A stretch of DNA of 38,813 nucleotides from Candidatus Woesearchaeota archaeon (GTDB lineage Archaea; Nanobdellota; Nanobdellia; UBA10117; ARS21). Every line of letters starts with the position of its first letter. The stretch's first letter is position 1. This document shows positions 1 through 26,884 of this stretch, in pieces. The position numbers were made by a program, and so were the translations under genes. The notes beneath the pieces were generated by a model. It did not search any database. It worked only from the letters and a program-made list of their open reading frames with translations, and was not told where the DNA came from. The stretch is taken from NCBI GenBank assembly GCA_018698915.1, contig JABIPN010000035.1:1-38813 (forward strand). Reading direction: 5' to 3'.

Positions 1-1268
1 AAGGAACACTTACTATGGCAAGTTCACATTTTGTTTCAAATGGAACCGGCACCCTTTCAATAACTGGAGCAAATTTCTATAACTTAACGGTTGAAACTGG
101 AACCACAACGTTGGGAACTGCAGTTACCATTGATAATGTATTTTTGGTTACCGGAACTTTAACTACAAGTAATAATGCCGTGACTGCACCGAACATAGAT
201 TTGGATGGAACGATTAATGCAGGCTCGTCAGTTATAACAATAAATGGTAATGCAAATATGACGGGCGGAACTTATACTTCTGGAACTTCAAAGTTGGTTT
301 TAGGTGGAACAAGTGTTTTCAATCCAGGAGATAATTCCTTCGATAGATTAAATGTTAGTAGTGGAAATAATGCTAGACAATTTGGGAATGCCACAGTTAA
401 TCAATTATTTTGTCCGATTGGAGTTTACAATGTTAGTGGAGGAGCTAAATTATTTTTGAATAGATCTGTACAATTATGCTCAACACAATCTTACTGGAAT
501 ATTTCACTTCATAACGGAAATATAATTAATGCATCTATTAACGGAACTAATATAACTCATGTTAATGGATCTAATGTTGTAATACATCCAATTTCTAGTT
601 TCATTGTAGACTCAGGAAATTTCAAAAATGTTTCATCTTATGCGAATATTACTGCATCTGCCGGAACGTCTTCAGTTGATATAAATATTTCTTATCGTGA
701 CGAAGATGTTAATGATGTTTCTGAAAGTACTATCAAGATTTTCAGATATACAGGAAGTGCTTGGAGCGAAGTTACAGGAGCAACAGTTAATATGGCAACT
801 AATATTATCTCAGCAACATTGAAAACTTTCTCATTATTTGGTGGAGGTGGTCTTGAGAAATCTATATCTATTGCTCTGTCTACGAATTTATCTAATAATT
901 TGGGTTGGACTGTTTCAAATACAACCGGATTAGAATGGAAAGCTCATAATAATAACGGAACGGGCATAACAGGCTATCATATTAATGTTAGTGCAAATCA
1001 TACTTCGGTAAATTTAACAATTAAAGCAGATTCTGCATTAACTAGTGGCGGAAATACAATTCCACTGGCTAATTTTAATTACAGTTATAATAATTCAGAT
1101 AGCACCGTTCCCGGTTTCAACAAATCAATTACTACAGCTGCGTCATTTATTGGTAATGAATTAGTAAATAAATCAGTAACTTGGTTGAAGTTTTTCCTAA
1201 CAGTTCCTACGCGTCAAGCAGCAGGAAACTATACAAATACCGTTACTATTGCTGCAACAGCTTCATAA
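1..1268 (+). CDS. Secreted/surface beta-strand-repeat protein, 5'-truncated by window edge
   Basis: Frame open to the window edge (GTLTMASSHF...). Repetitive Gly/Thr/Asn beta-strand motifs such as FYNLTVETGTTTLGTAVTIDNVFLVTGTLTT. Many N-x-S/T sequons. C-terminal domain ends WLKFFLTVPTRQAAGNYTNTVTIAATAS. Confidence 0.75.
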   Translation, partial: GTLTMASSHFVSNGTGTLSITGANFYNLTVETGTTTLGTAVTIDNVFLVTGTLTTSNNAVTAPNIDLDGTINAGSSVITINGNANMTGGTYTSGTSKLVLGGTSVFNPGDNSFDRLNVSSGNNARQFGNATVNQLFCPIGVYNVSGGAKLFLNRSVQLCSTQSYWNISLHNGNIINASINGTNITHVNGSNVVIHPISSFIVDSGNFKNVSSYANITASAGTSSVDINISYRDEDVNDVSESTIKIFRYTGSAWSEVTGATVNMATNIISATLKTFSLFGGGGLEKSISIALSTNLSNNLGWTVSNTTGLEWKAHNNNGTGITGYHINVSANHTSVNLTIKADSALTSGGNTIPLANFNYSYNNSDSTVPGFNKSITTAASFIGNELVNKSVTWLKFFLTVPTRQAAGNYTNTVTIAATAS

Positions 1269-1269
1269 A

Positions 1270-1416
1270 ATGAAAGAGAGAATTACAATAAGTATTGAAA
1301 GAAGATTGCTTAAGAAAATAGATTCCAGTATCAATGATTATCTTTTTGCAAATCGTAGTCATGGATTTGAATATTTAATTTCGGAGGAAAAGCGAAAAGC
1401 TAAAAGTAGAAAATGA
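1270..1416 (+). CDS. Small ribbon-helix-helix (CopG/MetJ-like) DNA-binding protein, 48 aa
   Basis: Manual translation MKERITISIERRLLKKIDSSINDYLFANRSHGFEYLISEEKRKAKSRK*. Basic beta strand then two helices fits RHH. ATGA overlap with the next gene. Absent from the supplied ORF track (<60 aa). Confidence 0.7.
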   Translation: MKERITISIERRLLKKIDSSINDYLFANRSHGFEYLISEEKRKAKSRK

Positions 1417-2159
1417 TAACTAAAAATATGAAGAAGTTTTTGGCATTGATGATTATTTTTACAGTTTTATTTAGTCCAGTTATTGCGCTGAAAGGTGTTG
1501 GGATTAAATATGGTATTGAATATACTAACGTTGGAGAAGGAAAGGAAACTTGTCTAAATTATGGTATTTATAATCCGTGGGATGAGTCTGTTGTTGCTGA
1601 ACTAACTGCAGATGGAGAGTTGGAGCAATTTATTAAAAAGGTCTACAGTAAAAAGATTCCTGGAGGAACAAGTAGCGGAGATGCAATTCAAGTTAAAGTT
1701 TGCTTTGATATCCCCAGAAAAACATTAGATAATTGCGAGGATACTAAAGTTTTTGAAGGAACTGTTATTGCCAGAGAAAAGAAAGAAAATTCACTTGGTG
1801 GTGTTGGTTCTGCAACATCAACAGTAGTTACTGCACCACTTACTCTTGAAGTTGTATGTAATGAAGGTATTACTGGTTCCGCTTCAGCATCAACAGGAAA
1901 TTCGTTTAAAAATATCAGTTTGGGTTTGATATTTATTTTCAGTTTAGCAGGAATCGTTTATTTCATGTTATTAAATAAGAAGAAACAGAAACGAGATCAT
2001 CCGATTGAATCGCATACTTTGAGAGAGATTTATATGAAAAAATATAGTGAATTGATGAAATTACATGTTAGAATCGCAGCAGGAGAACGCAATCCTGAAC
2101 TTCTGAGACAATATAATTCTTTACGTGAGTATTTAGAGCTTCTAAAAGAAGATATGTAA
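1413..2159 (+). CDS. Signal-peptide/single-TM extracytoplasmic protein with cytosolic coiled-coil tail
   Basis: N-terminal hydrophobic signal (MKKFLALMIIFTVLFSPVIA), beta-rich middle, C-terminal TM (ISLGLIFIFSLAGIVYFMLL) followed by KKKQKR and a helical tail. Confidence 0.75.
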   Translation: MITKNMKKFLALMIIFTVLFSPVIALKGVGIKYGIEYTNVGEGKETCLNYGIYNPWDESVVAELTADGELEQFIKKVYSKKIPGGTSSGDAIQVKVCFDIPRKTLDNCEDTKVFEGTVIAREKKENSLGGVGSATSTVVTAPLTLEVVCNEGITGSASASTGNSFKNISLGLIFIFSLAGIVYFMLLNKKKQKRDHPIESHTLREIYMKKYSELMKLHVRIAAGERNPELLRQYNSLREYLELLKEDM

Positions 2160-2173
2160 ACCTTTTTTATATG

Positions 2174-2230
2174 TGTTAACATTGTTAACAAAGATAAGTT
2201 ATATAAACCAAGATGTTAATATTGTTAACA
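2174..2230. promoter_or_regulatory. Operator-like paired palindromes flanking a TATA box
   Basis: TGTTAACA-T-TGTTAACA at 2174-2190 and TGTTAATA-T-TGTTAACA at 2214-2230, 40 bp apart, with ttatataaa (~2199-2207) between them, just upstream of the 2232 ORF. Confidence 0.6.
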
Positions 2231-2231
2231 G

Positions 2232-2726
2232 TTGGGTGGTAGATTGAATAAATCAATCAAGAATAGACAGATTTACGTATATTCTTCTAGTCACTTGACT
2301 CCTACTGAACGTGTAAAGTTTTTTTACGCTTTGAAGGGCCGGAACGGTAAGCCAGGAATTTTAGATACTACTCAATCGGTATTTTTTGCAAAATCCGTTC
2401 TAAGTGTTCTTCCTGCGCAGTTTGAAGAGATTGAACAGTTTCTGAAAGAATGGAACTGTAAATTTTATATTAAGAAGATCAAATCTTCTAACAAACCAAC
2501 ACATGCGTTAATTCGTTATTCTACCACCCATATGAATTCGACTGAGCGTGTAAAATTCGTCTATGCAGTACATGGGCGAGGCAGTTCTGAAGGCTTCTTG
2601 AGGGATAAAGAAATTTTGGCAAAAACAGCACTATTTGTATCCATAAAAAAGTTAGCAGAAATTAAAAAATTCTTTGGAAGTTGGAACTGCGAATTATTAA
2701 TTGAGGAGGTGGAAGCTAGTGAGTAA
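2232..2726 (+). CDS. Protein with two tandem copies of a ~70-aa domain (function unknown)
   Basis: Internal duplication: YSSSHLTPTERVKFFYALKGR...FLKEWNCKFYIKKI versus YSTTHMNSTERVKFVYAVHGR...FFGSWNCELLIEEV. TTG start. Confidence 0.7.
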   Translation: MGGRLNKSIKNRQIYVYSSSHLTPTERVKFFYALKGRNGKPGILDTTQSVFFAKSVLSVLPAQFEEIEQFLKEWNCKFYIKKIKSSNKPTHALIRYSTTHMNSTERVKFVYAVHGRGSSEGFLRDKEILAKTALFVSIKKLAEIKKFFGSWNCELLIEEVEASE

Positions 2727-3585
2727 TATTTATCGATTGAAGAAAGAATTGAATCATATTGCTAAGCTTAGATCTGAGCTTTACAATAGAAGAAAGAAGT
2801 TTGCAGAAAAAGTATATGTGCTGAATAAACAATATAAACAATCTGAGATAAATCACTTTGATTATTCGGAAAAATTTGAATCTTTGCTTGGAAATAGAAC
2901 AATTGATGGACTTGAGAAACAACACAGAAGAAAGATTGAGTCTTTGAATCATCGAGATCATGCAATAAGAAATGTAATAAGAAGGCAAGAGCTAAAGAAA
3001 TCAGCAATTGTTAAAACCGCAGTATTATCAGTAATGGTGATGTTAGCAATATCAATGCCATTCACAATTGATTCAGGAATAACTGGATTTGCTACATCAC
3101 AATCTGTTGGAACTACAGCAACTGCAAACATTATTTATTATTATGCGTTAGCAGAGTCTACAGACTTCAGTAGCGGAATTGATTTCGGTACGATTACACA
3201 TAATACTCAGAATAATAATGCTACAGTAAACTATGATAATTCCGGAACAGGATATGCCTTGAATCTATCTGCTGATTCCAATACAGATATCTCGATTTGT
3301 GTAAAGGCAAATACTGATCTGAAAATACATTCAAGTCCAAGCAATATAATTGGAATCGGAAATATGACATTTAATGCTTCAACTACCAATACCTCCAGCA
3401 CACCTAGCTTCAGCACAAGAACTGAAATGAATACTTCAGTATATCGGAATGCAACTCATAATTTGGGTGCTGGAAATGCAACGTTCTTCAGATTCTGGTT
3501 AACAGTACCCGATGCAACAGTTCCGGGAACATATAATAATACTGCTGAATTTAAAGCAGTAAGAGCAGGAACGGATTGCGCTTAG
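2719..3585 (+). CDS. Bitopic membrane protein: N-terminal cytosolic coiled coil, TM, extracellular beta domain
   Basis: GTG 2719 preceded by an SD-like GGAGGTGG. Coiled coil, TM (TAVLSVMVMLAISMPFTI), then a beta domain ending FFRFWLTVPDATVPGTYNNTAEFKAV, similar to the end of the 1-1268 ORF. Confidence 0.7.
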   Translation: MSNIYRLKKELNHIAKLRSELYNRRKKFAEKVYVLNKQYKQSEINHFDYSEKFESLLGNRTIDGLEKQHRRKIESLNHRDHAIRNVIRRQELKKSAIVKTAVLSVMVMLAISMPFTIDSGITGFATSQSVGTTATANIIYYYALAESTDFSSGIDFGTITHNTQNNNATVNYDNSGTGYALNLSADSNTDISICVKANTDLKIHSSPSNIIGIGNMTFNASTTNTSSTPSFSTRTEMNTSVYRNATHNLGAGNATFFRFWLTVPDATVPGTYNNTAEFKAVRAGTDCA

Positions 3586-3633
3586 TGTTTTGTTTTAAGA
3601 AATCTTTAAATAGAAAGTAAGTTCTAATCTATT

Positions 3634-3855
3634 ATGAATATCGACTCCTCAAATAGAAAAATAATGACAGCAGGTTTGGTGCTTTTAGTAGTTGCTGGAG
3701 GATTGGGAATATATATGGTTGCAGATAGTTTTAATTCAGAGTTACCGCTTCCATCTCAAAGCGGAACTGGTTCTTTTTCTATTGAAGTTGTTGAAGGCGA
3801 ATTAAGTAATGGTGAAGAAATCACGGAAACTGGCGCAGACGAAGCGCATCAATAA
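3634..3855 (+). CDS. Small N-terminally membrane-anchored protein
   Basis: TM (IMTAGLVLLVVAGGLGIYMVA) then GTGSFSIEVVEGELSNGEE. 73 aa. Overlaps the next ORF by 47 nt in another frame. Confidence 0.55.
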   Translation: MNIDSSNRKIMTAGLVLLVVAGGLGIYMVADSFNSELPLPSQSGTGSFSIEVVEGELSNGEEITETGADEAHQ

Positions 3856-4417
3856 TAATGAGTACGCAGTAATTGGCGCACTTGCTTTAGTAGTTGCAGC
3901 TATTTTTGTTCTTCAGCTATATGATTTTAGTTTTTTAGGAAAAGCCACAGGAACGTTTGATATAACCGTATCTGGCGGAGTTGGTTGTAATATTGATCAA
4001 AATGCAACCATTGGTTCTATTGCAGCAGGATCTACAACTACCACTGCAGATTATGCAGGATCGACAGGAACTGGACTTGTATTAAATAATACGGGAAATG
4101 TAGATCTAAGAGTTGATATAGTCAGCAACGCATCAAATACAACACTATTCCCTGGATCAGGACCACTATTTCTTTTCAATGTAAGTGCAGGAGTTGGGGC
4201 TGATGTCGAAACTGGAGTTGATATAATAACTAATAATGGAACCGACTATGGGAGTTGGACAAATGTTAGCACAGCTTCAATACTTATCGCAGATAATTTC
4301 ACATATTTTTCAACAAACGATACAATTAGAATTGACTTCAATGTAAGTATTCCTGCAGACGCAACAGCTGGAGTAAAGAAAGCAACAATAACTCTTAATT
4401 GTACTGAAAGACCATAA
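3809..4417 (+). CDS. N-terminally anchored extracellular beta-sandwich-like protein
   Basis: TM (YAVIGALALVVAAIFVLQLY) then GTFDITVSGGVGCNIDQNATIG...; terminal DFNVSIPADATAGVKKATITLNC. Sequon-rich. Confidence 0.7.
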   Translation: MVKKSRKLAQTKRINNNEYAVIGALALVVAAIFVLQLYDFSFLGKATGTFDITVSGGVGCNIDQNATIGSIAAGSTTTTADYAGSTGTGLVLNNTGNVDLRVDIVSNASNTTLFPGSGPLFLFNVSAGVGADVETGVDIITNNGTDYGSWTNVSTASILIADNFTYFSTNDTIRIDFNVSIPADATAGVKKATITLNCTERP

Positions 4418-4902
4418 TGAGATATTTATTGACGCTTTTGTTATTACCTGGAGTTTTAGCATTAGGTGTTTCCCCGGGCATCGTAGAATATGATTTTGTT
4501 TCTGGAGGAACTTATAAAGGATACGCGTGCATAAATGATGCTGAAGGCATGAATATCACTTTAAGCATATCGGATGATTATTTGATTACTGATTTTGAAT
4601 TCGATAAAAATCATTTTATTTCAACTAAATATTCTGAATGCGTTAATTACACTTTCAAAACAGTTTATTTTGTAGATCCAAGTAAAACCAGTTCCACTTA
4701 TATTTATGCAGAGGAATCACTTCCTGAAGCTAGGAATGGTGCATTTAGTGTTAGAGTTGGACAACAATTAGCAATTAATACAACTGATGCTCCAATTAAA
4801 GAAGATATACCCGAAATAGGAATCACCTTTACTTCAATTGCATTGGGATTGTTTATTATTGCGATTTTAATACTTTTCTTCATTAGGCGCAAGCGTAACT
4901 AA
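4417..4902 (+). CDS. Signal peptide + extracellular Ig-like domain + C-terminal TM (DUF916/COG1470-like architecture)
   Basis: MRYLLTLLLLPGVLALGVSPGIVEYDFVSGGTYKGYACINDAEG...; C-terminal TM and RRKRN tail. 1-nt overlap with the preceding gene. Confidence 0.65.
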   Translation: MRYLLTLLLLPGVLALGVSPGIVEYDFVSGGTYKGYACINDAEGMNITLSISDDYLITDFEFDKNHFISTKYSECVNYTFKTVYFVDPSKTSSTYIYAEESLPEARNGAFSVRVGQQLAINTTDAPIKEDIPEIGITFTSIALGLFIIAILILFFIRRKRN

Positions 4903-4932
4903 ATTTATTAATCATTGGAAACTTTGAATTAT

Positions 4933-6510
4933 ATGCGTAAATTACTTTTGATTTTAAGTTTGGTACTATTACCTAGTGTATTCGCCCTTAGTATTTTTGA
5001 TGCCTTTACAATAATCGATCCTTTTGCTTCAGGAACTTTTTCAATAAGTGTTGATGCTGGAAATACACCAATTTGGAATCAATCCATTTCTAATGTTACA
5101 GTAAATCAAGATGCGAGTGTGTCTACAGTAGATGCAAATATGACTCTTCTTGGAAATGGTCAATGTACTGATGCCGATGGAACCACTCCAACTTTTTCAG
5201 TAGCTAGTGAAAATACTTCTGCAGTTGATTGTTCAGTCTCAGGAGTTCAATTAAATATTACTCCTGCAAGTAGTTTTTATGGTAATTCTACGTGTATAAT
5301 TTCTTGTGCTGATGCCACGAATTCAACAAATAGTACTTTTACTATTACAGTAAATGAAGTTTCAGCTGGCGGAGCTGGTGGCGGTGCAGGAGGTGCTGGA
5401 GGTGGCGGTGCAGGAGGTGCAGGAGGTGCAGCAGCTGAATGTTCAGAAGATAGTGATTGTTCTAGCGGATATAGTTGTAATACTGGTACTGATCAATGTT
5501 ATGATTCATGTTCAAGTAATTCTCAATGTGCTAGTGGATATTTTTGTAGTTCTTCAAATACTTGTGATGAAATAGAATGTAATTATGATAGTGATTGTTC
5601 AGAGGGTTATGCTTGTGATACTAGTGATTATGCATGTTATGACTCTTGTTCATCAAATGATGAGTGTGCTAGCGGATATTATTGTGATGAGGATGCATCT
5701 TGCGAATCTGGTTCGGGAGGAGGTGCAGCTTTTTTCTTAGCACCAACATTTAAGATAGAACCCGAAATTATTAATATTAAATTAACTGAAGGTCAGACTG
5801 CTGTAAAAACTTTTACAATTTCAAATTTTAAAAGTATTCCTCGAAATTTCAGATTATCTTTAAGAGGTATAGCAAGTTTGGCCGTTATACCTACAAACGT
5901 ATTTATCGAAGCGAAGAGTAAAGAAGTAATTGGTATTGATTTTAAAGTTCCCGAAGATATACGTATTGGAGTCTATTCAGGCAGTATTGATGTTGAAGCT
6001 AAATTAATTAGTGTTATTGTAGAAGTTAGATCAGAATATTCAGACTTAGAAATTGGACTTACTTTACAAGGGAATAAATCTTCATTTGCACCATTTGCTG
6101 GACAATTTGATATGCGCGCAGTATATCCGGGACAAGATTTATCACCAAAAGTGGATTTATCTTCATTTTATGAACGAGGATTCTCACTTTTAGATGTTGA
6201 ATACTCACTTTTAGATTCAGAAAATCAAGTAGTTTATTCTGAAATTGTTGAAACTCAATTTAATAGTGAGCCGTTCACTAAATATATTACTTTACCAACA
6301 AATATAGCTCCGGGTAGATATGTTTTGTCAGTATTAATTGATCAAGGAGAAGTTTCAGGTTTAGCCTCTAAGACGTTTGATGTTCGTTCTAGATTCTCAC
6401 TTTTAGATGATTTTGTAATACAACTATCGATTATTATACTAATAATTTCAGCAATTTTCTTATTATATGTACATTATCGAGCTAAGAAACACAAGCCAAA
6501 ATCAAGATAG
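4933..6510 (+). CDS. Secreted multidomain protein: beta domain, Gly/Ala linker, Cys-rich repeats, Ig-like domains, C-terminal TM
   Basis: Signal peptide MRKLLLILSLVLLPSVFA, SGTFSISVDAGN, GAGGGAGGAGGGGAGGAGG linker, CSEDSDCSSGYSC repeats, C-terminal TM. The track starts at 4915; the start at 4933 fits the signal peptide better. Confidence 0.75.
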   Translation: MRKLLLILSLVLLPSVFALSIFDAFTIIDPFASGTFSISVDAGNTPIWNQSISNVTVNQDASVSTVDANMTLLGNGQCTDADGTTPTFSVASENTSAVDCSVSGVQLNITPASSFYGNSTCIISCADATNSTNSTFTITVNEVSAGGAGGGAGGAGGGGAGGAGGAAAECSEDSDCSSGYSCNTGTDQCYDSCSSNSQCASGYFCSSSNTCDEIECNYDSDCSEGYACDTSDYACYDSCSSNDECASGYYCDEDASCESGSGGGAAFFLAPTFKIEPEIINIKLTEGQTAVKTFTISNFKSIPRNFRLSLRGIASLAVIPTNVFIEAKSKEVIGIDFKVPEDIRIGVYSGSIDVEAKLISVIVEVRSEYSDLEIGLTLQGNKSSFAPFAGQFDMRAVYPGQDLSPKVDLSSFYERGFSLLDVEYSLLDSENQVVYSEIVETQFNSEPFTKYITLPTNIAPGRYVLSVLIDQGEVSGLASKTFDVRSRFSLLDDFVIQLSIIILIISAIFLLYVHYRAKKHKPKSR

Positions 6511-6540
6511 GTTTTTATAATTCAGATAGCTATTTTTCCT

Positions 6541-7533
6541 ATGCGTAAATTATTTATTTTGTTGTTATTAATACCCCTAGTTTCAGCCCATCATCCTGTT
6601 TTTGATGAAACTGGATTTGTTGAATCAGAATTACCAGTAGTATATTCTAATAAATTCTCACTTTCTGAAGTCGATATTACATTAGAGGATAATTCTTACT
6701 TTAATCTTGAAATTATCAATGAAGGTCCTGAATCATTGTTCTTAATTATTAATTATCCTGATTTTTTGAGTGGAGAGAAACAAGTTGAAATAAGAGACAC
6801 TTATAATTTAGAGGTTAAAGTTGATAATTCTAGAAATTCTTACGGACTTATTGAATTTCAAGCTCCAGAAGCCTCTCTTTTTTTACCTGTTACTCAGCTG
6901 TTAGCAGATAATGCAGCATTTGATAGCTTTGAAATAAGAATGAAGTCAGATGTGTATTTTGCAGGAAAAGATGCGTTAGTAAATGTTAAAATAACTGAAG
7001 ATAATTCGGAAATTACGAAACAAACTGAATTAATTTTTATACTATTTTCAAAAGACAATCAAAAAGTGTTTGAATCTACCAAAAATATCAAAGTAGACGC
7101 ATTATTTGATGAAGAAGTATCACTTTATTTACCTGAATACCTATCAAAAGGAGATTATATGCTCTTTGTTGAGGCCAGATATGCTGATCGTTCGGATTAT
7201 GATTCCTCACTTTTCTCTTTAGATGAGAAAAAATCGTTCAGTTATTGGATATATGTATTATTTATAGTAATTATTGGATTATTTATTTTTTTGATACATA
7301 ATAGTCATAAACATCTTAGTAATTTGAAGAAGATTCATACCAAACACTCACTTTCCATTAAGAAACACCATGCTTCGCGTGCAAAAGTGGAGCTTGTTGA
7401 GAAAAAGCTGTCTTCCATAAGATCTGCCTATTTAGCGGGGGCTATTTCTAAGAAAAACTATGATCTTGCAGTTAAAAAGTTAAAAGAAAAGATAAAACAA
7501 CTAAGAGATTCGGTAAAGCGAGGCCCGAAATGA
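6541..7533 (+). CDS. Signal-peptide/TM protein with cytosolic SHOCT-like helical tail
   Basis: MRKLFILLLLIPLVSA, beta-rich ectodomain, TM (YWIYVLFIVIIGLFIFLI), tail SAYLAGAISKKNYDLAVKKLKEKIKQL. Confidence 0.7.
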   Translation: MRKLFILLLLIPLVSAHHPVFDETGFVESELPVVYSNKFSLSEVDITLEDNSYFNLEIINEGPESLFLIINYPDFLSGEKQVEIRDTYNLEVKVDNSRNSYGLIEFQAPEASLFLPVTQLLADNAAFDSFEIRMKSDVYFAGKDALVNVKITEDNSEITKQTELIFILFSKDNQKVFESTKNIKVDALFDEEVSLYLPEYLSKGDYMLFVEARYADRSDYDSSLFSLDEKKSFSYWIYVLFIVIIGLFIFLIHNSHKHLSNLKKIHTKHSLSIKKHHASRAKVELVEKKLSSIRSAYLAGAISKKNYDLAVKKLKEKIKQLRDSVKRGPK

Positions 7534-7574
7534 GGAGTAACTGTTATAAACAACTGTATACTTTACTATCTATC

Positions 7575-8015
7575 ATGGCTGGAGATTCTACTGTTCAATC
7601 TGGTGCCGCTTGGCCACCTGAATCAACAAATTCTAGGACTTCAAAGCGAAAGACTTCTCGGCGAAGACCCACTTCGGCACGTAAAATTACTTCTAAACCT
7701 AAACTTACTAAAAGAAGAGTAACTAAGCGAAAGAACGAGAATTATTTGACTGCAGCAATATCTGATATTGGTAAAGAACTTAGAAGACTCACTTCTGGTA
7801 AAACTAAGTTACAAGGCCGTCTTAATAGGTCCAGAAAGGACTTACTTGGTCTAAAGGCAAAAGAAGACAATATTAGAGATAGATTAACTAAATTAATTGC
7901 AAAAGAAGGTCCAATTCATGAGCATCAACGGCTTTTGAAGCAGTCACTAACTAATATTAAAAATAAGATATTGAAAGTCAAGAAAATTCGAGAAGAAATT
8001 CGAGATCCAGAATAA
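7575..8015 (+). CDS. Basic, coiled-coil hypothetical protein
   Basis: Likely start MAGDSTVQS at 7575 (track starts at 7530). Lys/Arg/Ser/Thr-rich N-terminus, helical C-terminus. Confidence 0.6.
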   Translation: MAGDSTVQSGAAWPPESTNSRTSKRKTSRRRPTSARKITSKPKLTKRRVTKRKNENYLTAAISDIGKELRRLTSGKTKLQGRLNRSRKDLLGLKAKEDNIRDRLTKLIAKEGPIHEHQRLLKQSLTNIKNKILKVKKIREEIRDPE

Positions 8016-8061
8016 ATTTTTTTATTTTTTCAGATTTAGTAAGGTTTTTATTGTTCAGACG

Positions 8062-8134
8062 AGTTAAACTATTGTTAAACACATGTTAAACACATCCAAT
8101 CAGATGTTGAACAAGTCTAAACGTGTTTAAACAG
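8062..8134. repeat. Phased ~11-bp TGTTAAACACA direct-repeat array upstream of the wHTH gene
   Basis: Exact tandem TGTTAAACACA at 8073-8083 and 8084-8094. Degenerate units at 8062-8072, 8105-8115 and around 8115-8134, including GTTTAAAC. Confidence 0.6.
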
Positions 8135-8137
8135 AAG

Positions 8138-8635
8138 ATGGTCATTAGAAAAGCACTAAGAAAACTTTTGAGAAGGAAGAAAAGAACTAAAACTCTAGAA
8201 AAGGAAGAAGTAGATAAACACAAAGTCCTCAGAAGTTGGGAAGATATTTATGGAGAACTAAGTGAACATCCTTTAACTCAAGCAAAGATAATTAATGAAC
8301 AACTATTACATTCTACTAATGATGCTTTGAATGAGATAAACAATAAGTTAGATATTTTAGATGAAAGAGTTGGTTCTTTAGAACGTAAGAGACCTGTCGT
8401 TAGACGTAAGGATGATAAACTTCCTTTAGTTGTTATTCCTCGTGCAAATTTATCAAACCAAGAAGAACAGATTGTTCAACTAATTGAAGCTCAAAACGAA
8501 GTAGATGCAAAGACTGTTGCACAGAAGTTTAATATATCTAGATCAAACTCAAGTTTGAAATTGAATAAATTACATAATTGGGGTTTCTTAGCAAAACGAT
8601 TAGATGAGAAAAGCGTTTTCTTTAGAATAAAGTAG
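8138..8635 (+). CDS. Coiled-coil protein with C-terminal winged-helix DNA-binding domain
   Basis: C-terminus LSNQEEQIVQLIEAQNEVDAKTVAQKFNISRSNSSLKLNKLHNWGFLAKRLDEKSVFFRIK is wHTH-like. ATG at 8138 preferred over the upstream GTG at 8123. Confidence 0.65.
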   Translation: MVIRKALRKLLRRKKRTKTLEKEEVDKHKVLRSWEDIYGELSEHPLTQAKIINEQLLHSTNDALNEINNKLDILDERVGSLERKRPVVRRKDDKLPLVVIPRANLSNQEEQIVQLIEAQNEVDAKTVAQKFNISRSNSSLKLNKLHNWGFLAKRLDEKSVFFRIK

Positions 8636-8639
8636 TTGT

Positions 8640-8653
8640 TAAACACGTGTTTA
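8640..8653. promoter_or_regulatory. 14-bp perfect palindrome TAAACACGTGTTTA between convergent genes
   Basis: Read directly. Overlaps the stop codon of the recombinase gene and sits within a further TGTTAAACAC match. Confidence 0.6.
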
Positions 8654-9457
8654 GAGTTCATCCAAAGGTGAACGAACTTGTTTGAGTTCTTTATTTGAAA
8701 TATGTGTATATATTTGAGTGGTGTTTAGATTAGAATGTCCCAATAATACTTGAATCTTTCTAATATCTGTTCCGTTTTCTAGTAAATGTGTTGCAAAAGA
8801 ATGCCTTAGTGTATGTACATGCACGTTCTTGTTTATCTGTGCACCTTTTGCTATTTTTGTCACTATATTTTGTATTTGTCTTACCGATATTGGCCTGTCT
8901 TCATCCCTTCCCGGAAAGAGGTACTTGTTCTCATTTGTAATATACTTTTGAAGGTCCCTGCATAAGTCTTCAGACAGTATAATCATCCGATCCTTCTGTC
9001 CTTTACCTTTACGCACCCAACCGATATGCTGAGACAACTCTAAATCATTTACTTTGAGCTTTTGCAGTTCAGATAGGCGCAAACCAGATGAATAAAGCAG
9101 TTTAATCATTAGCTTATGTTTTGGATCTGTTGCAGATAGAATCATTCTCTTCACCTCCTCCTTTGTGAGTACCACAGGTAATGTTTTTGGTATCTTCGGC
9201 GCCTTAATTTTGATGTTTTTTCCTAGAACTTCGTTATGATAGAATATCAATGAGGCTCTAACTAATGCGATCGATGCCAGAGAGTATCTTTTTTGAGAAA
9301 TAAGAGTGCCCAAGTACTCCTTTATCTCTCTTTGAGTAACTTCTTTTGGGTGCTTTTTTAGAGTTTCATCAAATTTTCGGTTATGGAATAAGTAAGCTTT
9401 GATTGTATCTGCAGAAAAACCTCGAATTTTTAATTCAGATTCTAATCGATGGAGCAT
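8651..9457 (-). CDS. xerA: Xer-family tyrosine recombinase (XerA-like)
   Basis: Catalytic residues recognisable: SSGLRLSEL (Arg), KGKGQKDR (Lys), HTLRHSFATHLLENG (HxxR), LLGHSNLNTTQIYTHI (His, Tyr). Confidence 0.9.
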   Translation of the reverse strand: MLHRLESELKIRGFSADTIKAYLFHNRKFDETLKKHPKEVTQREIKEYLGTLISQKRYSLASIALVRASLIFYHNEVLGKNIKIKAPKIPKTLPVVLTKEEVKRMILSATDPKHKLMIKLLYSSGLRLSELQKLKVNDLELSQHIGWVRKGKGQKDRMIILSEDLCRDLQKYITNENKYLFPGRDEDRPISVRQIQNIVTKIAKGAQINKNVHVHTLRHSFATHLLENGTDIRKIQVLLGHSNLNTTQIYTHISNKELKQVRSPLDEL

Positions 9458-26560: not shown

Positions 26561-26832
26561 AGGGGCTTTATTGGGCTAGACAGGCCGGGTAAGCGCGGCT
26601 GTTATCTTGTATGCTAAGATGTCGAAGCTTGAAGGGCGGCATGGATGGTATGTTTTGTCCCTGACGTGTGACGTCGAAGCGTTGCCTCCTCTGGCGATTA
26701 AAGATGAGAACCTGGTCAGACGGGGAACCGAGCAGCCATAATTATGTTTATTTGTGCTTTGGAGTAGCGGCGCGGAGTTGTTCGTCAGTAAGACTTTGCA
26801 TTTTTGAAATGTCCACCTTCAAGTGTGCCCTT
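26561..26832 (+). ncRNA. ffs: Archaeal SRP RNA (7S RNA); ends approximate
   Basis: GGGCTAGACAGGCCGGG 5' region; helix-8-like CCTGGTCAGACGGGGAACCGAGCAGCC with GGAA tetraloop; GC-rich island in AT-rich DNA; terminal GGGC/GCCC pairing; TATA-like ctatataatc ~30 bp upstream. Confidence 0.9.
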
Positions 26833-26884
26833 TATATTCTCAAATCATATAAACATTTTAATACGTAAGGCTGTTTTCTAAATT

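Follow-up and report, generated by a model that had tools for sequence, protein, structure and literature searches.

How might an uncultured archaeon with a very small genome hold large proteins at its surface? DPANN archaea are largely uncultured, many of them are thought to need attachment to other cells, and the means of attachment are mostly unknown. The question is raised here by a gene cluster at the start of contig JABIPN010000035.1 of a Candidatus Woesearchaeota archaeon (assembly GCA_018698915.1), a stretch of 38,813 nucleotides that was analysed whole and is called the window below; it is contig C29, starting at base 1, of a 523 kb genome that is 88% complete. Bases 1-8015 hold ten genes on the same strand, in the order A1-B-C-D-E-F-G-H-I-J, followed by a winged-helix-like gene, Kw. 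None of the proteins A1-Kw passed a Pfam or NCBIfam cut-off, and sequence searches of solved structures found no relative. In Firmicutes, WxL/Csc clusters consist of cscA, encoding the DUF916-DUF3324 protein WxLIP, cscB, a small WxL protein, cscC, a large WxL protein, and cscD, an LPXTG mini-protein. On balance we lean towards the view that the archaeal cluster encodes a surface adhesion complex of this WxL/Csc type, newly recognised in archaea and held together by strand complementation.

The comparison begins with the membrane-anchored proteins. Gene H (4933-6510, +) encodes a signal peptide, a cadherin/Big-like domain, a Gly-rich linker, Cys-rich repeats, two immunoglobulin-like (Ig) domains and a C-terminal transmembrane (TM) segment, and gene I (6541-7533, +) encodes a signal peptide, a double Ig unit, a TM segment and a cytoplasmic tail. 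A WxLIP profile was made from 12 Firmicute DUF916-DUF3324 proteins, drawn from plasmid-borne WxL clusters of food, soil and commensal species that were located with an approximate, consensus-like bait sequence. Against this profile the H family gave an hhalign probability of 98.7% and an E-value of 2.3e-16 with the deeper alignment (3.8e-16 before) over 204 columns, both Ig domains being colinear and followed by a C-terminal TM segment; the I family gave 98.4% and 4.8e-15. The reversed profile gave an E-value of 0.028, the top score of 60 column shuffles was 18 against 116 for the real match, and control families stayed at 0.014 or above, with 0.03 and 0.22 for other Ig-like families. At profile level, H and I are homologous to WxLIP, which upholds the anchor part of the WxL-type analogy drawn in the initial annotation, and H is the putative counterpart of CscA. 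The cluster has the membrane-anchored WxLIP (DUF916, DUF3324 and TM segment) of a WxL/Csc cluster, although the Pfam gathering cut-offs are missed. Gene G (4417-4902, +), with a signal peptide, one Ig-like domain and a C-terminal TM segment, is probably a relative of the first WxLIP domain (89.6%, E-value 1.9e-6). Gene B (1413-2159, +), which has a signal peptide, an Ig-like domain of about 110 amino acids (aa), a C-terminal TM segment and a cytoplasmic tail, gave no significant match to the same profile (E-value 0.014). The initial annotation had described G and H as signal peptide-Ig-TM proteins, correctly for both; with B and I there are four. In sister clusters, 4 of 12 paralogues of about 375 aa match PF11797 (WxLIP_HBD; best E-value 1.5e-6), and the window's own genome holds H, I and one weak match to their family.

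A WxL/Csc cluster also combines a small protein that carries just the common domain with a large protein that carries it at its C-terminus, and this plan was found here. Gene A1 (1-1268, +), whose reading frame is open at the contig edge and has lost its 5' end, encodes only the C-terminal part of a large surface protein; its last 150 or so residues form a beta-sandwich domain, bD, and it would correspond to CscC, the large WxL protein. Its homologue in a same-genus relative has 1075 aa and an N-terminal hydrophobic segment (L022:7459-10686). Gene D (2719-3585, +), the candidate counterpart of CscB, encodes a cytoplasmic N-terminal region (coiled-coil by inspection), a TM segment, the motif TGFAT, a conserved strand and a bD domain. 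Gene F (3809-4417, +) encodes an N-terminal TM segment, a TGTFDITV strand and a beta-sandwich domain, bF, and may supply a second small subunit. The initial annotation had seen similar ends in all three proteins. By plain pairwise alignment this is so for A1 and D (z=10.7, 0/300 shuffles); the F domain shows no significant pairwise similarity to A1 or D (z=0.3 and 2.1) and joins them at profile level only, where iterative profiles link bD and bF and hhalign gives a probability of 96.1% (E-value 3.4e-9) or, in another comparison, 97% (E-value 8e-11).

The position of bD is strict: only 0-7 aa lie between its end and the C-terminus in 24 of 24 open reading frames (ORFs) longer than 300 aa, some of which are overlapping views of one gene. 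Large proteins ending in bD range from 400 to 10,180 aa in relatives. Because both cysteines of the domain occur in 21 of 23 small bD proteins and in 0 of 12 large ones, small and large bD are distinct subtypes. Within the window's own genome bD is confined to A1 and D. The longest open frame, of 10,180 aa, lies about 1.9 kb upstream of a D gene (G008:C12; L024/L025). In L029, L056 and L060 the bD genes have as neighbours large proteins whose repeated VGIGTTSP-like segments recall the repeats of phage tail fibres.

The AlphaFold2 model of the D domain is confident (pLDDT 88.5, pTM 0.78), with residues 1-30, which include the conserved strand-like segment after TGFAT, at low confidence and unpaired. 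Its nearest solved folds in Foldseek are chaperone-usher pilins (probability up to 0.98, E-value 0.03-0.5). The F model has low confidence (pLDDT 58), and the pilins in its Foldseek list are a hint only. For bacterial WxL proteins, a mobile N-terminal strand was already suspected (PMC9772566), and AlphaFold predictions by others place a WxLIP strand in the gap of the WxL sandwich (PMC10599100).

The gene set is conserved. The order A1-B-C-D-E-F-G-H-I-J-Kw is retained in the same-genus relative G001, where a second, incomplete copy occurs as well; relatives with the same order are metagenome-assembled genomes (MAGs) labelled Woesearchaeota or Pacearchaeota, and looser versions are spread over DPANN MAGs. 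A scan with one genome per species gave 16 loci, from MAGs that bear the labels Pacearchaeota, Woesearchaeota, Nanoarchaeota and Aenigmatarchaeota. The bD genes have B and a WxLIP-type protein beside them in 14 of these loci, the remaining two ending at contig edges, and B is the most constant partner of bD genes. Unrelated terminal folds or a gene set peculiar to this genome would have spoken against the initial annotation; the domains proved related and the genes conserved, so that its observation is confirmed and its interpretation partly supported.

Gene E (3634-3855, +), a 73-aa ORF, encodes a TM segment, a linker, a single strand (GTGSFSIEV) and an acidic tail; it lacks LPXTG, is anchored by its N-terminal TM segment, and is a candidate tethered donor strand in the place of CscD. 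By a count made by hand, 12 of 15 small bF genes have an E-like gene of 64-95 aa immediately upstream. The E strand resembles the N-terminal strand of F, ATGTFDITV (p=0.017 in the window; p 0.001 for the L023 pair), and across 13 pairs the match reaches p=0.008 by Fisher's method. In enterococcal WxL clusters (L104, L128-L132) the first segment of the LPXTG mini-protein is similar to the N-terminus of the small WxL protein next to it, as in EVRSVETEGTIGFTG (LPXTG mini-protein) and EVRNVTTDGTIEFTA (small WxL protein). Siezen et al. termed the interactions of CscD unknown (PMC1534035), and this resemblance is a possible anchor mechanism for it. Judged from sequence, the strand resemblances of E and of the LPXTG mini-proteins are suggestive, a lead and not a result.

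From these observations we infer a complex that would assemble as follows. The large adhesin A1 would be exported and end in a bD sandwich, and the small subunits D and F would carry the same kind of domain. The WxLIP-homologous H and I, and also G and B, would keep the assembly at the membrane. The bD and bF domains would be pilin-like sandwiches completed by a neighbour's strand; the donor could be the segment right after the membrane helix of D or F, perhaps following processing after TGxA, or the strand of E. With such a strand, supplied by one of the proteins D, E and F or by a WxLIP-type protein, the terminal domain of A1 or that of another small subunit would be complete, and the giant A1 might thereby be tethered without a covalent bond and serve in adhesion.

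The remaining genes may be accessory. Gene C (2253-2726, +) encodes a soluble two-repeat protein that matched no family. It accompanies D variants that have a cytoplasmic N-terminus of about 95 aa (window, L022, L023, L025, L026, L027), other small bD genes lacking it, and its product may bind the cytoplasmic region of D; one weak match in the search for C, in L060, is a nucleotidyltransferase-like ORF. Gene J (7530-8015, +) encodes a soluble protein, coiled-coil-like by inspection, with homologues in L022, L047 and L032. Gene Kw (8123-8635, +) is a possible regulator (MarR_2 E-value 0.003, below the cut-off) and has the same place in L022 and L026. The initial annotation had counted about nine same-strand genes; the genes, strands and coordinates hold, and the count becomes ten up to 8015 plus Kw, gene E not having been listed separately. 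A1, D and F are rich in N-glycosylation sequons, but in D their density is only 2 standard deviations above shuffles.

Directly beyond the cluster lies a tyrosine recombinase gene (8651-9457, -; PF00589, E-value 4e-44), probably of XerA type; the same neighbour stands beside the cluster in L022 and, together with Kw, in L026. Further along, a signal recognition particle (SRP) RNA occupies 26569-26834 (+), where the archaeal family fits best; its score of 85 bits falls short of the Rfam cut-off of 96.5. An Rfam match to the bacterial small SRP at 26681-26777 turned out to be the core of this ordinary archaeal RNA.

Several results weigh against a WxL/Csc-type complex. The WxL family (PF13731) has no match in the genome or in 95 relatives, A1, D and F contain no pair of W-x-L motifs, and the WxLIP Pfam cut-offs were reached in no archaeal genome searched. 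Profiles of WxL and bD/bF gave hhalign probabilities of just 2-47% with E-values of 2e-4 to 2e-2, in a range where a generic Ig hairpin can reach about 0.004. The alignment is in register at the C-terminal hairpin and above column shuffles; it was bD/bF against the unrelated H family that gave the 0.004, at a like hairpin. NEW3 seeds drift into bF, and the NEW3 control, contaminated by bF members, is itself no clean yardstick for generic Ig domains. Because the WxL-domain match is indecisive, we do not class the locus as a WxL cluster, while noting that it appears to work in the same way and has the partner protein in common with it. The Foldseek matches of D are at fold level only (TM-score up to about 0.5). 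The distribution of bD is patchy, with 22 of 284 genomes of the phylum positive at an E-value of 1e-5 or less. The match between E and F is weak in most single pairs, 2 of 13 lying below 0.05, and the formal test of LPXTG mini-protein against small WxL protein reached significance for 3 of 6 pairs, of which two come from related clusters; in the L100 pair, one of these three, the best match falls in a Pro/Ser-rich linker outside the strand.

Three other readings can be set against these data. The D fold would suit a donor-strand pilus in which D and F polymerise behind a tip formed by the giant A1, as in chaperone-usher pili or the Sulfolobus thread, the Ig-TM proteins acting as base or assembly factors. 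Pilins top the Foldseek lists (of the D model and of the low-confidence F model), the N-terminal strand of D is unpaired, a large protein that ends in a pilin-like domain recalls two-domain tip adhesins, and donor-strand pili do occur in archaea (PMC9715654). Yet a cluster usually has just one to three small subunits, the long cytoplasmic N-terminus of the window's D suits an anchored rather than a polymerised subunit, the WxLIP homology indicates an anchored complex, and the genome has no usher (PF00577); we consider a pilus rather unlikely. It is harder to regard the proteins as independent Ig-like envelope or S-layer-associated proteins whose likeness to WxL systems is convergence among E-set domains. 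That would fit the drift of NEW3-type seeds, the low-significance matches of several unrelated Ig families, and the Asn/Thr-rich low-complexity sequences that inflate weak matches. It fits poorly with a WxLIP match that covers two domains at an E-value of 2e-16 with clean controls, with a gene order kept over large distances and with the strictly C-terminal position of the domain, and we judge convergence improbable.

The tyrosine recombinase also raises the idea of a mobile-element or provirus module, as the PF00589 protein adjoins the cluster here and likewise in two relatives. The enzyme resembles the housekeeping XerA type, ordinary archaeal genes flank the cluster and no virion or plasmid genes were seen; this origin is very improbable. 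An anchored WxL/Csc-type complex remains the reading we lean towards.

A bolder version of it is that the DPANN and Firmicute clusters are one ancient or exchanged four-part donor-strand machine, in which a tethered strand (E or CscD) completes the C-terminal domain of the giant adhesin. We offer this tentatively and regard it as doubtful; if true, one shared machine would also account for the unexplained bacterial CscD. In the literature searched, WxL proteins in DPANN were not described, and WxL proteins were joined with donor strands in one general review only. If confirmed, the complex would be a new attachment mode for uncultured archaea with tiny genomes, and the cluster gives named, testable candidates for attachment, namely surface proteins as long as 10,180 aa that would be held by homologues of a Gram-positive anchoring protein.

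Among known systems, the archaeal Saci_0406 thread and the TasA/AbpA fibres resemble this cluster in the donor-strand principle proposed for it, in secreted beta-sandwich subunits and in the lack of an usher. They have no WxLIP partner or giant adhesin and were absent among the 50 Foldseek matches listed. The kinship with TasA/camelysin suggested in the initial annotation was dropped: no Pfam match was obtained, PF12389 has no match in the genome, and hhalign gave 0.4-3% with a shallow TasA profile (Neff 1.9). Chaperone-usher pili (CsuA/B, CfaB, FimA and the pilin domain of FimH/PapG) offer the solved folds closest to the D domain, an N-terminal strand that is unpaired in the monomer and a large protein whose C-terminal domain is pilin-like; the similarity is at fold level only, and the archaeon has neither an usher nor an outer membrane. 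From the Firmicute WxL/Csc clusters the archaeal one differs in lacking WxL motifs, a WxL family match and LPXTG, in WxLIP-type proteins that stay below the Pfam cut-offs, in an envelope where no peptidoglycan is expected, and in the extra B, C, G, I and J. The two kinds of cluster agree in having, all within one gene cluster, a homologous WxLIP double-Ig-TM protein, small and large proteins that share a strictly C-terminal beta domain, and a mini-protein with a short extracellular part that looks like the N-terminus of the small subunit.

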